Assembly: GCA_031258785.1 (NCBI GenBank)
Contig: JAIRMJ010000005.1
Location: 1 to 54,215, forward strand
Length of the DNA: 54,215 nt
Direction of reading: 5' to 3'
Origin: Holosporales bacterium
GTDB lineage: Bacteria > Pseudomonadota > Alphaproteobacteria > RUG11792
Shown here: one piece after another, positions 40,979-54,215 of the stretch
How positions within the stretch are numbered: the first letter of the stretch is position 1
How the letters are laid out: every line of letters starts with the position of its first letter
Position numbers and translations under genes: made by a program
Notes under the pieces: generated by a model
What the model saw: only the letters and a program-made list of their open reading frames with translations
The model's database searches: none
What the model was told of the DNA's origin: nothing

Positions 40979-41001
40979 AAATGCTCCACGTGGAACATTT
41001 T
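40978..41001. promoter_or_regulatory. parS site 1
   Basis: Core TGCTCCACGTGGAACA (40982-40997) within a 24-base palindrome flanked by AAAA and TTTT, with one mismatched pair. The last base of the tsaB-like stop codon is its first base. It lies 34 bases after the end of parA. The ParB family binds such CACGTG-centred sites as chromosomal centromeres. Confidence 0.88.
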
Positions 41002-41034: not shown

Positions 41035-41802
41035 TCATGCCGAACCATACTTAGCCAAAAATTCTCTAGCCAGCTCCATATATGCCCACGAGCCAGCGCA
41101 CTTGACGTCATAAATAAGCACTGGCCGTCCGTGCGATGGCGCCTCAGAAATTTTTACATTTCTTGGAATTACACAGTTAAAAACGGATTTTGTGAGATGT
41201 CTCCTAACGTCATGTGCGACAGACAAACAAAGAGCGTTCCTCTTGTCAAACATCGTTAAGACAACGCCAAAAAGCTTTAATCCATTGTTGTATGCGAGCC
41301 TTATCCTGTTGATTGATCCAAGTAGATAGCTTAATCCCTCAAGCGCATAATACTCGCACTGTAAAGGAATCAGGACCCCATGCGCTGCGACTAGAGCATT
41401 CAGCGTTAAAATGCCCATAGACGGCGGCGAATCAATAATTACGTAATCGAACATGTCGATATAGGGTAAAATAGCATTTTTGAGGATACTCTCACGATTT
41501 GGATCCTGCACAAGTTCGATCTCTGCTCCTATCAGATCGATGCCGGAAGGCACCAACGTTAATCCAGGAATGCTGGTTTTGACTAGGATTTCTGCCAACG
41601 TCTTGCTTCTGGTTAACAGATCATAGCTCGTATTGAGCTTTTTGTCATATTGCCCGAGACCAGTTGTGGCATTCCCCTGAGGATCGAAGTCTATTAGGAG
41701 GACCCTTTTTCTGATCGCCGCGAATGCAGTCGCGAGATTGACGGCAGTTGTCGTTTTCCCTACACCACCTTTTTGGTTGGAAATAGCTATACTAACTGTC
41801 AT
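41035..41802 (-). CDS. parA: Chromosome partitioning ATPase ParA (Soj)
   Basis: ParA is the Walker-type ATPase that moves ParB-parS complexes along the nucleoid. The deviant Walker A motif KGGVGKTTTAVNLA is at residues 11-24, VLLIDFDPQGNATTGLG and YVIIDSPPSMG (Walker B) follow, and the C-terminus contains NVKISEAPSHGRPVL. The 255 residues lack the helix-turn-helix of plasmid type Ia proteins, so it is of the chromosomal type. ATG 41802 overlaps the end of rsmG by 11 bases. Unlike the usual rsmG-parA-parB order on one strand, parB is divergent on the other side of a 1-kb gap. Confidence 0.96.
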   Translation of the reverse strand: MTVSIAISNQKGGVGKTTTAVNLATAFAAIRKRVLLIDFDPQGNATTGLGQYDKKLNTSYDLLTRSKTLAEILVKTSIPGLTLVPSGIDLIGAEIELVQDPNRESILKNAILPYIDMFDYVIIDSPPSMGILTLNALVAAHGVLIPLQCEYYALEGLSYLLGSINRIRLAYNNGLKLFGVVLTMFDKRNALCLSVAHDVRRHLTKSVFNCVIPRNVKISEAPSHGRPVLIYDVKCAGSWAYMELAREFLAKYGSA

Positions 41803-42403: not shown

Positions 42404-42427
42404 AAAATGCTCCACGTGGAACATTTT
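42404..42427. promoter_or_regulatory. parS site 2, in the rsmG-parA leader
   Basis: Core TGCTCCACGTGGAACA (42408-42423) with AAAA/TTTT arms; one mismatched pair in 24 bases. It ends the left side of the rsmG/parB gap, 13 bases before the rsmG start codon. Confidence 0.9.
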
Positions 42428-43365: not shown

Positions 43366-43389
43366 AAAATGTTCCACGTGGAACATTTT
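43366..43389. promoter_or_regulatory. parS site 3 (perfect), parB leader
   Basis: A 24-base perfect palindrome with core TGTTCCACGTGGAACA (43370-43385) and AAAA/TTTT arms, 62 bases before the parB start codon. It is the best copy in the window and defines the consensus used here. Confidence 0.93.
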
Positions 43390-43451: not shown

Positions 43452-44336
43452 ATGGAAAAAAGGCTTGGAAGAGGGCTTGCAGCCCTGCTTGGGGATGCCG
43501 AAAAGTTGGCCAATTCGAGGGAAGGAAGAGTCGATATAGAGCAGGTTGTTCCGAATAATGAACAACCACGCAAGAGTTTTGATGACACAAAGATCGACGA
43601 GTTGGCCGGTTCGATCTCGTTGTACGGCCTTCTGCAACCGATTGTTGTACGGAGAAAAGACAATATATATGAGATAGTCGCTGGTGAAAGGCGATGGCGC
43701 GCCGCAAAGAGAGCTGGGCTCAAGGAGATTCCAGTACATGTAGTAGATTGTGAGCCGTCAGAAATTAATGCCCTAGCATTGATCGAGAATTTGCAGAGAA
43801 CGGACTTGAATCCTATAGAGGAGGCAGAGGCAATGAAAAATCTCATGATTAATTGCGAGTGTCGCCAGGAGGATATCGCTGTCATACTGAGTAAGAGTCG
43901 CAGCTATGTTGGCAATGTTATGAGGCTATTACACCTTCCTGAGCGAGTTAGGGAACTGATTCGTACTGGCAAACTGAGTGTGGGGCACGCAAAATGCCTT
44001 GCTGGTCTGAGTAATGCAGAAGAAGTTGCGGGACTTGCCGTAGAAGAAGGCTGGAACGTTCGGCAACTCGAAAAAGCGATGAAGGATATACGTGGCGGTG
44101 GCGCTCCCGAGGTTGAGAGTGTCGAAGCCAAACCGGTGTACACAAGTACCGGTACTCTGATCGATCCGAATCAGGATCATGAGGCTATGGACATAGCCAT
44201 CAGGATCACTGAGGCCCTACAAATTGAGACAAAACTCAAGATTACACGAAAAGGTGGCGTTCTCACGCTGATTTGCAAATCAGGAGAGGAGTTGGAAACC
44301 TTGATCAGGAAGTTGACGACACCAGCAGCAGAGTAG
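43452..44336 (+). CDS. parB: Chromosome partitioning protein ParB (Spo0J)
   Basis: ParB is the CTP-dependent clamp that loads at parS. The 294 residues start with the basic EKRLGRGLAALLG tail (ParA contact), then GLLQPIVVR and the CTP-binding GERRWR (residues 78-83), ENLQRTDLNPIEEA, and a helix-turn-helix (RQEDIAVILSKSRSYVGNVMRLLHLP) that reads the palindrome. A C-terminal dimerisation domain ends at 44336. ATG 43452 has AGGAG about 13 bases upstream. It is divergent from rsmG-parA with parS 3 in its leader, and convergent with the pseudopilin gene. Confidence 0.96.
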   Translation: MEKRLGRGLAALLGDAEKLANSREGRVDIEQVVPNNEQPRKSFDDTKIDELAGSISLYGLLQPIVVRRKDNIYEIVAGERRWRAAKRAGLKEIPVHVVDCEPSEINALALIENLQRTDLNPIEEAEAMKNLMINCECRQEDIAVILSKSRSYVGNVMRLLHLPERVRELIRTGKLSVGHAKCLAGLSNAEEVAGLAVEEGWNVRQLEKAMKDIRGGGAPEVESVEAKPVYTSTGTLIDPNQDHEAMDIAIRITEALQIETKLKITRKGGVLTLICKSGEELETLIRKLTTPAAE

Positions 44337-49612: not shown

Positions 49613-52600
49613 GTGCCGAGTATTGTATCAAACATATGGAAACTGCTGCTAGCGTTTCTGTTCTGCATTATGCACGCGGAAGCAGAGCATTCCAAAAAAA
49701 TTGGCGATGAGCTTAAAATTGTAAAAGGCGCAAAATTCCTGTGTCACGACGGCACTCATGTCACCAGTACAGGCAAGATTATAAATTACGGCTACCTGGA
49801 GATAGGCGACGAAATAAACCTGCCATATGGTGACGATAACAGCAATATGGAAGAGGATTCGGCCAATGGTACAATACATAATCATGGGTGGATTAATTTT
49901 GTATTAAGTGAAGGGAAAAACGTCGGAATTACCGGCAATGCGAAGGTGCGCCTCTATGGTACCGATGTGAACGCAGAGTTGAACGATCGAATTGAGAACG
50001 ATTTCAGAATAACAAATAGCTTCGAAGATTACAACGACTTAGTCGACAAAAAAGGCGTCGACGCAATAGGAAATGCAGCATATTACGATCTTGTCAACGA
50101 GGACAACGAAGATATATGTACAGAAAAATTCTATAAGGTAAACGATGCCACAATTACCGTACAAAGCGCAAGTAACGGTCCTACACCCATTACAAAAGCT
50201 GAAAAAGTAAAACTACTCGGTGCTAACTTTAAAGAAGATCCTGAGTTACCACACACGAACGGCATGGCCGATACCCAAGAAGCCTTCGACACTCACAAGC
50301 ACAATTCGTATTTCGTAGAACGCAGCGGGACGGAGAAAATTGTCGAATTGCAAGTCGACAACCCAACATATTTCGGTGGATCAATATTTAGTGTAAAAGG
50401 TTATGAGGAAGATGAGACAGGAATTTTCAAAATAAAAGAGAAGAAATATAAGGTCCCGGAGGTTGATCGATCGTTGGTAGTAAGAAAGACAAAGCCAGAT
50501 ACTTATACGGAAGACTACGATACAGGCACTGAGGAGGATTCAGACAAAGGTGTTAGCTTGAAATTTACCCCATGGGTAGCCGACAAGAGCAATATCAGGA
50601 CATTTTATCAGGGCATCGGGAGTAATTACTGGGAATCAAGGCAGCAAGATAAAGGGGATCCAATCGCCATATTTGGAGGAGATAACTCCTGGTACAATGG
50701 CGTATTTAGACTTGAGCACGGCGGCGCAGTGATAGATAACAAGGGGGCAATATTCGGAGGCGACATCGAGCTTGGCAAATTAGGAAAAAGAAAAGGAGTA
50801 GATGATGTCCAATACGATACTGCACAGGCTCTACACGATGATTTAGACTCTGATGATGCAACTAAAGTGGATAAGGCAAAAAGATACTGCGCGGCTGCTG
50901 AGCCAGTGGAGTTTGAATGGCAGGGAGGAGCAAAGGACGAATACAACAGACCGACGATCTATATGAATGGCAATTCCACCTTGTATTTTCTCATTCCTAA
51001 AACGGTAGGAGAAGACGGTGTGGAAAAGAACGGGATATTCTCGTTTTATGGGAATATAGTCGGTACGCCTACAGACAGGATCATCATACAAGATGGCGAA
51101 GTGCTCATGAAGGGCGATTGCTCCCGGTTTAAGGGGCATGTTGGCATTGTATCAGGTGCGCATTTTAAAATTACTGCAAGCGATGACGGTAGTTCCAGCC
51201 AATATACCGGCAAGATGCTTGGTGGCACGCAAAGCGTTGTTAACGAAAATGGGGAAAGGGACCCCAATGCAGTAGTAGAGGTTTCATCTGATGCCGGACT
51301 TAATCCTCTGACATTTGATGGCGGCACCATGGTTATCAACCAAGGATCTGGAGGAAACGATAAACTCAAAGTCGATCACATAACGATTAATTCAACGGAA
51401 TCAGACTGTCAAGCCACAGTGATGGTGAACGCCGAGACAGATCTATCGGGCACCAAGATTATTGGCGAGAAGTCAACGATGGTACTCAACAAGGGCGCCA
51501 GCTTCAATTTTAAAGATGGCTTCACTCTCAACAAAGGCACACTGGTTATCGGTGATGACGATATGACAGAGGTAAATTTTAGCGGCGATATCGTGTTGGG
51601 ATCAAGAGTCAATGTGCTGAATAATGCCAGAGACGTACTCCATATTAACGGCAACAATATAGTAAAGAGTGATGAAGAAGGGCTAGTCCAGTGGGCTATG
51701 GACGGCTCCATGCAGATGGATCTTGATTTTTGGCCAAATACACAAGAAATGAACTCAACGTATTCCAAATATCAAGCAGCCGACTGCATTGATTCTAAGG
51801 ACGGTGTTACTATTGGATTGACACATCCGTTCGTACTTACTACTATCAGGCTCTTCCAAACGGTGGATATAACTAAGAATTCCCTGGCCGACAAGTCCGT
51901 AATTAATCTCACAGAAGACGAGTATCGTTTTAAAATTTTTCAGTTTACCGGTGACGCCGCCAAGTTCCCGCCAATTGCTATTCCCAAAGATGTAGTCGTT
52001 GTAGATAAAAACAAACCTCTCACAGATACTCCCGTAAAGTATTTGCTGAATCCAAAAGACGCCTATGCTGTGACTACAGAAACTATCGATGGTGTAGAAA
52101 TACCGGTTGTCACCATTGGAGGTGCACAATACTATATTTATGGATCAGACGGCTATGATGGCAGTATGAAAACAATAATCACTGGAGGCACTGTGGCCAA
52201 AAGCCGGACTTTTGAGCCTGGCACAGTCACCTTCGTGAGAAAGATTGATGATAGAAACCTTAATCAAGTTTTTGCGCAACCAGATTCGTTGCCAAGTGAC
52301 GTTATTAATGACGAGATATTCGATGATGTGCGGTCTGACCATAACAGTGACTCGTACATAAATGGCGGGGCGTCCTTTAGTACGTCTACTGACAGTTATG
52401 GTAGCAAGAGCGCAGGATACAAAATTAGAACCCGTGACAAGGTCATACGTTATGACGCAAAGGCCCAGGGCATTTTGGGATACAACACACTTTTTAGAGG
52501 AACAATGTTCGCAAGTTCATCCGAGGGAGATACGGTTGGACCAGGATATAGATCGACGCAAACTGGTCAGACAATGGGTTATAAGGGAGCGATTACTGAC

Positions 52601-53122
52601 CGCAAGATCGCAATCGAGGCAGTCGCTTCTTATGGATTTATCAACACGAGCTCACGCACACAAGCTATCGGGCACAAGACACTTATAAAGAGCCACGCAG
52701 TGACGATCGCATCAAAGATTGCATATACAGTAACTCTGTCTGGATATGCCAGGTTGGTATCGGCGCTTGCCATGGACTATTCATTCATTTATACTCCAAC
52801 CGCCAAGACAACCGCTGGCGCCATGAAGTTATCTAACTTGCATAAAGGGGATATGATCCCGGCCGTGAACCTTGTTGTAGACATCCATGGATGGAACGCC
52901 ATCGTCTTCGCCAAATATCATCACAGATTTGGAGGAGCGGCCCAGTCAACGATCAACGGCAAGAAAATCCTCAACGCCGATATTCTTAAGAAGGACTACG
53001 TGGAGTATGGGGTTGATGTCGCCAGAAAAGTGAATAATTTTGAGGTAGGCTTCAAGCTATCACGGTTAACTGGCACAGCGCGTAACGTCAAATGCTCTCT
53101 ATCGGTCGGCAACCGCTTCTGA
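49613..53122 (+). CDS. Autotransporter (type V secretion) with acidic beta-helix passenger
   Basis: A 1169-residue surface protein. It has a signal peptide (IWKLLLAFLFCIMHAEA, cut before EHS), a passenger of about 860 residues with Gly/Asp/Asn-rich beta-helix repeats (for example NGVFRLEHGGAVIDNKGAIFGG and NKGTLVIGDDD), and a C-terminal beta-barrel of roughly 270 residues ending NRF, with the terminal Phe expected by the BAM machinery. Strands such as GYKGAITDRKIAIEAVASYGF and EYGVDVARKVNNFEVGFKLS alternate as in Autotransporter family barrels. The passenger is unusually acidic (DDNSNMEEDS, DLDSDDATK). GTG 49613 is the only start that keeps the full signal peptide. It could mediate adhesion to host membranes; the passenger family is unrecognised. 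Confidence 0.85.
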   Translation: MPSIVSNIWKLLLAFLFCIMHAEAEHSKKIGDELKIVKGAKFLCHDGTHVTSTGKIINYGYLEIGDEINLPYGDDNSNMEEDSANGTIHNHGWINFVLSEGKNVGITGNAKVRLYGTDVNAELNDRIENDFRITNSFEDYNDLVDKKGVDAIGNAAYYDLVNEDNEDICTEKFYKVNDATITVQSASNGPTPITKAEKVKLLGANFKEDPELPHTNGMADTQEAFDTHKHNSYFVERSGTEKIVELQVDNPTYFGGSIFSVKGYEEDETGIFKIKEKKYKVPEVDRSLVVRKTKPDTYTEDYDTGTEEDSDKGVSLKFTPWVADKSNIRTFYQGIGSNYWESRQQDKGDPIAIFGGDNSWYNGVFRLEHGGAVIDNKGAIFGGDIELGKLGKRKGVDDVQYDTAQALHDDLDSDDATKVDKAKRYCAAAEPVEFEWQGGAKDEYNRPTIYMNGNSTLYFLIPKTVGEDGVEKNGIFSFYGNIVGTPTDRIIIQDGEVLMKGDCSRFKGHVGIVSGAHFKITASDDGSSSQYTGKMLGGTQSVVNENGERDPNAVVEVSSDAGLNPLTFDGGTMVINQGSGGNDKLKVDHITINSTESDCQATVMVNAETDLSGTKIIGEKSTMVLNKGASFNFKDGFTLNKGTLVIGDDDMTEVNFSGDIVLGSRVNVLNNARDVLHINGNNIVKSDEEGLVQWAMDGSMQMDLDFWPNTQEMNSTYSKYQAADCIDSKDGVTIGLTHPFVLTTIRLFQTVDITKNSLADKSVINLTEDEYRFKIFQFTGDAAKFPPIAIPKDVVVVDKNKPLTDTPVKYLLNPKDAYAVTTETIDGVEIPVVTIGGAQYYIYGSDGYDGSMKTIITGGTVAKSRTFEPGTVTFVRKIDDRNLNQVFAQPDSLPSDVINDEIFDDVRSDHNSDSYINGGASFSTSTDSYGSKSAGYKIRTRDKVIRYDAKAQGILGYNTLFRGTMFASSSEGDTVGPGYRSTQTGQTMGYKGAITDRKIAIEAVASYGFINTSSRTQAIGHKTLIKSHAVTIASKIAYTVTLSGYARLVSALAMDYSFIYTPTAKTTAGAMKLSNLHKGDMIPAVNLVVDIHGWNAIVFAKYHHRFGGAAQSTINGKKILNADILKKDYVEYGVDVARKVNNFEVGFKLSRLTGTARNVKCSLSVGNRF

Positions 53123-53144: not shown

Positions 53145-53168
53145 AAAATGCTCCACGTGGAACATTTC
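53145..53168. promoter_or_regulatory. parS site 4, at the left edge of the IS110 element
   Basis: Core TGCTCCACGTGGAACA (53149-53164) with AAAA on the left. On the right the arm is TTTC instead of TTTT, the only departure in the outer arm. The site lies 23 bases after the autotransporter stop. The change in the arm coincides with the proposed insertion point of the IS110 element. Confidence 0.85.
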
Positions 53169-53189
53169 ATATATTTTTATCCAATATGA

Positions 53190-53366
53190 TGGGAGAGTAA
53201 CTCATGATAGAGTTACATCGAGCTCTGGGAGATCATGTACAGTTTTCCCCGGGGGTTCATAGGCTGAATCGGTGGAACATTTGAATTGTAGATTCGTCCT
53301 AAAGTCAGAAGCCTATGAATCATCGATAGTCGTACGGTTGGCAGAGCATACTGCTCGAATATGAGA
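53190..53366 (+). ncRNA. Candidate IS110 bridge RNA
   Basis: The leader of the recombinase folds in order into: a 5' stem-loop (53197-53203 with 53210-53216, GTAACTC/GAGTTAC); a 10-base stem (53256-53265 with 53310-53319, TTCATAGGCT/AGCCTATGAA) enclosing an internal loop and an apical hairpin GAAT-TGTAG-ATTC (53283-53295); and a second hairpin GAGCA-TAC-TGCTC (53344-53356). This order of stem-loop, first guide loop and second guide loop is that of IS621-type bridge RNAs. The 5' side of the first loop contains GTGGAACATTT, identical to the flank at 53157-53167. The second loop's 3' side (53359-53366) can pair with 53165-53172. Transcription limits are estimated. Confidence 0.6.
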
Positions 53367-53373
53367 GGGATTT

Positions 53374-54215
53374 ATGATGAATGTTATAGGATGTGATATA
53401 GGCAAGAAGAGTCTTGATGTATTTCTAGATGGGAAACACTGTAGGTTTGAGAACGATATCAATGGAATTGGTATATTTATTTCAAGGTGTAAGGGTATTG
53501 AAAACCCAAGTGTGATCCTTGAACCAACAGGAGGATATGAAAGAAAACTGGTAAAACACTTGTGTATTAATAACATTGCTGTCTCCATTGTGAATCCTTA
53601 TTATGTAAGGAACTTTGCAAAATCTAAGAAGGATCTCGCAAAAACAGATAAGATAGACTGCAAGGTTTTAGCAGAATATGGAGAGAAGATGGAACCACAA
53701 ACCTATATTCCAAAAGCTACCCATTGCTTTGAACTAGAGGATCTTGCTCATAGAAGGGATAGCCTTGTTGATATGATTAAGCAGGAGAAACAGCGCCTTG
53801 AAAAGGAACCATCTGAACCAATTAGGGTAAGTATCCACAATGTTATTGAGTTTCTTGAGAAGGAGAGAACTGAAATTGATACGAAGTTACAAGGATGCGT
53901 AGAGACAAGTGAGCAAGCTAGACAAATCAGTGAAGTATTACAGACTGAAAAAGGGGTTGGTAAGCAGACGGCAGCTATCCTAATGGGGATGCTACCAGAG
54001 TTAGGGAAACTAGATAATAGACAAATAGCAAAACTGTGTGGATTAGCTCCTATGACTCATGATAGCGGAACAATGAAGGGATATAGATCGATTAGGGGAG
54101 GGAGAGCAAGAGTGAGGAAAGCACTATATATGGCATCTATCAGTGCTATTAAGAGTAACAAGGTACTGAAGGAGTTCTATATGAGGTTGAGAGGAGAAGG
54201 AAAACCTGGGAAGGT
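53374..54215 (+). CDS. IS110-family DEDD transposase/recombinase, 3' end outside the window
   Basis: At least 280 codons are open to the window edge. The RuvC-like DEDD domain has Asp8 in VIGCDIGKKSLDVF, Glu50 in LEPTGGYE and Asp92/Asp95 in KTDKIDCKVLA. The C-terminal Transposase_20 domain shows GVGKQTAAILMGMLPELGKL, then LCGLAPMTHDSG and KGYRSIRGGRARVRKALYMAS, with Ser231 as the expected catalytic serine. The start is ATG 53374 or 53377, with GAGAGG upstream. Family proteins have about 320-340 residues, so 40-60 are missing at the right. No frameshift is seen; it could be active. Its base composition is more AT-rich than the neighbours, which suits a mobile gene. Confidence 0.92.
   Translation, partial: MMNVIGCDIGKKSLDVFLDGKHCRFENDINGIGIFISRCKGIENPSVILEPTGGYERKLVKHLCINNIAVSIVNPYYVRNFAKSKKDLAKTDKIDCKVLAEYGEKMEPQTYIPKATHCFELEDLAHRRDSLVDMIKQEKQRLEKEPSEPIRVSIHNVIEFLEKERTEIDTKLQGCVETSEQARQISEVLQTEKGVGKQTAAILMGMLPELGKLDNRQIAKLCGLAPMTHDSGTMKGYRSIRGGRARVRKALYMASISAIKSNKVLKEFYMRLRGEGKPGK

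Follow-up and report, generated by a model that had tools for sequence, protein, structure and literature searches.

An IS110-group insertion sequence with a bridge-RNA target loop apparently programmed to parS in a Holosporales bacterium

The window analyzed here, 54,215 nucleotides that make up one contig (C29) of an 886-kb, 44-contig genome of a Holosporales bacterium, ends inside an insertion sequence (IS) that lies directly beside a site for the partition protein ParB, parS. Very probably, this is an IS110-group IS that uses the bridge-RNA mechanism of IS621, with a target loop naturally programmed to parS. The 11 bases GTGGAACATTT are identical at 53157-53167 and 53272-53282; the first copy comprises the right parS arm of the site at 53149-53164 plus TTT, and the second lies in the predicted target loop. 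This identity, on which the initial annotation was built, was confirmed. The features at this end of the window are as follows.

53149 to 53164, no strand assigned: parS site TGCTCCACGTGGAACA, one mismatch to TGTTCCACGTGGAACA
53157 to 53165, plus strand: left target (LT) GTGGAACAT, present at all four left junctions (one T fewer in C24 and C6)
53166 to 53167, plus strand: target core TT, kept at the left junction, with the donor core CT at right junctions
53168 to 54215, plus strand: IS110 element, from its left end to the end of window and contig
53185 to 53190, plus strand: -10 box TATGAT, pairing with a right-end -35 box TTGACT (17-bp spacer) only in the circle
53197 to 53367, plus strand: predicted bridge RNA, its start placed from the -10 box
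53256 to 53319, plus strand: target-binding loop, outer stem UUCAUAGGCU/AGCCUAUGAA, apical hairpin 53283-53295
53272 to 53282, plus strand: left target guide (LTG) GUGGAACAUUU, equal to LT plus core TT
53296 to 53306, plus strand: right target guide (RTG) GUCCUAA, core AG and handshake UC; reverse complement GA-CT-TTAGGAC
53333 to 53342, plus strand: left donor guide UACGGUUGGC, matching right-end TACGGTTGAC
53358 to 53367, plus strand: right donor guide AAUAUG, AG core and AG, complementary to left-end CT-CATATT
53374 to 54213, plus strand: IS110 DEDD transposase, open at the contig end (D8, E50, D92, D95, S231)

Left ends of the element could be read on four contigs with unrelated upstream DNA, and at all of them the element abuts the parS 16-mer at precisely the base that the LTG predicts. 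With the flanking genes named by reading their translations, the DNA before parS is a surface-protein gene in C29, a tRNA gene in C21, the prfB stop codon in C24 and the rpsA upstream region in C6. Every junction reads parS-TT(T) followed directly by CATATATTTTTATCC; the LTG matches LT plus core over 11/11 bases in two copies and over 10/10 in the two with one T fewer, and four such junctions would have a probability of ~2e-20 under random insertion. The proposal that the loop at 53272-53282 holds the left target guide is thus supported, and the other copies, whose flanks had been named beforehand as a possible refuter, all carry GTGGAACATT (4/4 left ends). The element had been taken to start at the parS arm; it does adjoin parS, with its exact start at C53168 and with the TT at 53166-53167 belonging to the target core. 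As also proposed, the parS 16-mer is intact at the junction, and since insertion spares it, the site could plausibly serve as a benign and lasting place to land. The genome has 24 occurrences of the 10-mer GTGGAACATT, three as the guide in three element copies, 19 as parS arms and two elsewhere, so that 19/21 of the nonguide sites are parS arms.

The transposase matches PF01548 (DEDD_Tnp_IS110) and PF02371 (Transposase_20) above cut-off and scores 165 bits against the NCBI IS110 equivalog NF033542 (cut-off, 140). Its residues D8, E50, D92, D95 and S231 align to D11, E60, D102, D105 and S241 of IS621 (PMC11208158), giving the DEDD RuvC-like N-terminus and the Transposase_20 domain with catalytic Ser of the IS110 group. 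The IS1111 group was rejected on the right end, which extends ~0.1 kb past the stop codon, and on the guide RNA, which lies upstream of the transposase gene; no separate search for IS1111 subterminal inverted repeats was made, and the rejection rests on these other features. The rest of the C-terminus and the right end (~0.2 kb) are found on contigs C3, C10, C15, C17 and C42. Element copies are ~99% identical and contigs break at the element, which suggests recent movement. One locus (L018, positions 1-213 of C6) is a deletion derivative joined at the 11-bp repeat ACTCATGATAG, in which the bridge RNA and the transposase N-terminus are lost.

The 206-nt leader upstream of the transposase gene appears to encode a two-loop bridge RNA, with the target loop seen in the consensus fold and the donor loop recognized by its guides. 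The target-loop fold (outer stem and GAAU..AUUC hairpin), which the initial annotation expected to be conserved over 53256-53319, is kept in 7/8 aligned leaders, where the loop bases change with the target; the remaining one, a degenerate copy on C44 of another genome (G028, see below), is without the apical hairpin. In the donor loop, UACGGUUGG matches the right end TACGGTTGA and AAUAUG-AG matches the left end CT-CATATT, so that both ends of the element are addressed by its own guides (UACGGUUG against the right end, AAUAUGAG against the left). The right guide had been placed at 53296-53309; it does lie in the loop, and its extent is corrected to 53296-53306, with GTCCTAA at 53296-53302, the AG core at 53303-53304 and the UC handshake at 53305-53306, which predicts CT plus TTAGGAC. 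The GACT of its reverse complement is identical to the four terminal bases of the right end, which would follow if these guide positions pair with the incoming donor strand, as do the handshake bases described for IS621 (PMC11208158). A sigma-70-like promoter (TTGACT-17-TATGAT, 10/12) would form only where the two ends meet in a circle; a promoter search of the integrated copy found none.

Together, the donor guides, handshake bases, CT/TT cores and circle-junction promoter appear to follow the IS621 scheme. The excised circle would join right end to left end and thereby create the promoter that drives the bridge RNA, whose donor loop would pair with the joined ends TACGGTTGA-CT-CATATATT and whose target loop would pair with GTGGAACAT-TT, one parS arm plus a T run, and, on the opposite strand, with the TT... 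that comes next. With recombination on the 3' side of the core TT, the element would then come to lie directly beside parS, the 16-bp ParB site intact, as the junctions read. Top-strand cleavage in IS621 is 3' of the core, whose first base can differ and whose second is almost always T (PMC11208158); by the same cut, the target core would stay at the left junction and the donor core at the right. A TT core throughout, also at the right junction, was considered and dropped, because a donor CT with a target TT explains the junctions of this element and of its sibling without an extra deletion.

Six right ends were found (C42, C17, C15, C10, C3 and C40, the last a truncated remnant). All carry CT, and the right flanks start with TT in 6/6, as the right guide requires. 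In three cases (C42, C3 and C17) the flank matches the DNA downstream of an empty parS (C27 or C15a): TTAGATATGTGGTAGA of C42 is post-parS DNA of C27, TTATGGATAGTGTG of C3 is post-parS DNA of C15a, and C17 matches C15a more weakly. Their local scores were 16, 14 and 12.5 for C42, C3 and C17, against 10, 13 and 12 as the highest of 300 shuffles. Both empty sites have five T after GGAACA, that is, the T ending LT, the TT core and the TT that begins the right target (RT), as the model requires for C42 and C3. Since right flanks match DNA downstream of unoccupied parS with the predicted T run, parS is host target DNA and not part of the element.

A search of contigs beyond the own genome found only a sibling element in G028, and no relative turned up among the viral contigs searched. 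The sibling transposase is 77 to 80% identical, its RNA scaffold is nearly unchanged and its guides are different (LTG AUAGACCU.., RTG ..UUUUUUGCAG). These guides are matched by the left flanks TTAGACCTG-TT and ATAAACCCG-TT, by the right flank CT-GCAGAAGTTGTAA (beginning CT-GCAGAAG) and by two empty sites, ATAGACC(T/C)GTTGCAAAAGTTGTAA, also cited as ATAGACC(T/C)GTTGCAAAAG, so the two elements differ in both guides and, in step with them, in both halves of the target. The G028 target motif occurs in inverted pairs 182 to 183 bp apart and is therefore probably the terminal repeat of a miniature inverted-repeat transposable element (MITE), at whose ends the sibling lineage, with the same scaffold and other guides, would enter. 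Contigs C8, C40 and C64 of G028 carry a 182- to 183-bp MITE-like element with terminal repeats ATAGACCTGTTGCA(A/T)AAG, the apparent sibling target. The two elements are thus apparently a case of natural retargeting, one of the two lineages having acquired a new address through replacement of its guides. One copy in G028 (C12) has a rearranged left end and is an exception to the guide-target pattern.

The window belongs to the chromosomal par region, since three of its parS sites, found by a motif scan of the window, lie beside ParA, RsmG and ParB.

40982 to 40997, no strand assigned: empty parS, par locus
41035 to 41802, minus strand: ParA
42408 to 42423, no strand assigned: empty parS, par locus
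43370 to 43385, no strand assigned: empty perfect parS, par locus
43452 to 44336, plus strand: ParB

These sites, which adjoin ParA and ParB, cluster the 16-bp consensus TGTTNCACGTGNAACA near parAB. With the site at 53149, the window holds four parS with zero or one mismatch, and seven with up to three, against 0.18 expected by chance. The occupied site lies ~9 kb from parB, and the label "centromere" fits it. Genome-wide there are 17 parS-like sites (≤2 mismatches in 886 kb) and none for a reversed control motif. That ParB binds these sites, and that they are safe places to insert, we infer.

Several further observations concern the surroundings of parS. The 1,169-amino-acid (aa) surface-type protein encoded at 49613-53122, without a Pfam match, lies just upstream of the occupied site. 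A parS-bearing repeat with a shared promoter-like region is present in four copies (L101, L103, L098 and L106, on contigs C27, C34, C15 and C44), with parS a short way upstream of surface-protein-like genes; a 322-aa open reading frame of C34 starts ~70 bp away. This repeat was considered as a second mobile element and rejected, being the promoter region of paralogous surface-protein genes. In C39 (L104, ~1494-1523), parS lies within a perfect 30-bp palindrome. Among relatives, the parS 16-mer (≤1 mismatch) occurs 170 times in G010, 29 times in G024 and 10 times in G009 (loci L112-L131), the G010 copies lying inside a dispersed palindromic repeat, while most other family members have 0 to 2 copies.

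A fortuitous match between loop and flank has nothing in its favor beyond the small size of the match, and the chance is negligible: the further copies had already ruled it out, with four independent junctions of 10 to 11 bases each, and the sibling adds a second guide/target pair. That the IS itself carries parS at its left end and spreads it would explain why TCCACGTGGAACATT is common to all four left ends, but it is improbable. The window copy has the TGCTCC variant and the A/T-run flanks of the empty par-locus site at 42408 (29 bp, 96.6%), the C24 palindrome begins with the final base of the prfB stop codon, sibling elements with the same left end CATATATT have no parS before it, and right-hand flanking DNA of the element likewise matches what follows empty parS. 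We likewise give very little credence to guidance by the ParB protein instead of the RNA; all readable left-end sites are indeed parS, but RNA pairing alone explains the junction base, the T run and the guide-dependent sites of the sibling. Doubtful, though of more substance, is the idea that the true target is a dispersed palindromic repeat containing the parS 16-mer, as IS621 targets the repetitive extragenic palindrome (REP), with the centromere role incidental. The 17 sites are spread over many contigs, copy numbers in relatives reach 10, 29 and 170 (in G010 as part of a larger repeat), and insertion into palindromic repeats is known for IS110/IS1111 elements (PMC11187229). Yet the empty sites of this genome have, for the most part, unrelated flanks outside the 16-mer and the A/T runs, so the shared part is parS itself, and three empty sites and the occupied site of the window lie in the parAB region.

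Several results weigh against an RNA-programmed parS address. The right flank had been predicted to match the right guide, and this was borne out in the TT and in the three flanks that match post-parS DNA; the full TTTAGGAC was not found at the right flanks. Of it, C42 has TTTAG and the other flanks have just the T run and scattered G; RT positions 3 to 5 match the guide in part, so the prediction is partly met, with the LTG matching in full and the RTG partially. Flanks of C10 and C15b have no strong match to any empty parS flank, and the best match of C40 (10.0) falls within the shuffles. No locus shows left and right flank in one assembly, and pairing them through gene order failed, as the proteins of the six right flanks were unmatched near prfB/rpsA in ~30 relatives. 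Downstream of prfB in relatives, parS was found only in G029 (61 bp past the stop), G010 (294 bp, in the 170-copy genome) and, weakly, G024, so that these relatives give no orthologous empty site. Covariation is thin (three pairs with double changes) and the whole-leader fold energy is unremarkable (z = -1.49); because of this, the RNA claim rests on the guide, end and promoter matches. A copy in G027, a remnant without transposase, has a G028-type guide and a mismatched left flank (4/11). As to the label "centromere," most of the 17 parS sites are off the parAB contig, some lie upstream of surface-protein genes, and given the copy numbers in relatives, the dispersed sites may form a repeat family and not act as centromeres.

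The mechanism is known, and the parS target appears, provisionally, to be new. IS621 (IS110 group, Escherichia coli; PMC11208160, PMC11208158) shares the DEDD and Ser transposase, a bridge RNA in the left end with two guide loops, the CT donor core, the handshake bases and the promoter formed at the circle junction. Its target is REP, whereas here it is parS (LT of 9 bases plus core TT), the target core TT differs from the donor core CT, and the host belongs to the Holosporales. Elements that seek REP, ISPpu10 and ISPa11 among them (cited in PMC11187229), likewise enter palindromic, multicopy, mostly intergenic sequences, but not a ParB-binding site, and ISPa11 is of the IS1111 group with its RNA downstream of the transposase gene. 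In apparently targeting the terminal repeat of a mobile element, the G028 sibling resembles IS4321/IS5075 (Tn21 terminal repeats, cited in PMC11187229), which differ as IS1111-group elements with subterminal inverted repeats and RNA downstream of the transposase gene. The natural redirection of ISEc11/ISXne4 (PMC11187229) also combines related transposases and a conserved RNA scaffold with exchanged guide bases; the present pair is of the IS110 group, with parS as one address. In line with the initial annotation, literature searches, with most subscription journals outside their coverage, found no report of an IS110 element at parS; a paper on TIGR-Tas mentions ParB-like genes and not parS.

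If true, this would be a natural RNA-guided recombinase addressed to a conserved, multicopy, noncoding site kept by most bacteria. The chances are about even that it represents a bridge-RNA transposon lineage with the centromere site as its standing address, leaving parS undamaged in hosts where parS has multiplied, and in which ParB spreading may silence the element. With donor and target cores that differ in this natural pair (CT and TT), each junction shows from which strand its core was kept, and the sibling with differing guides and sites makes the evolution of IS110 guides and targets directly testable. The finding also raises the question of how ParB-bound DNA and transposition interact.
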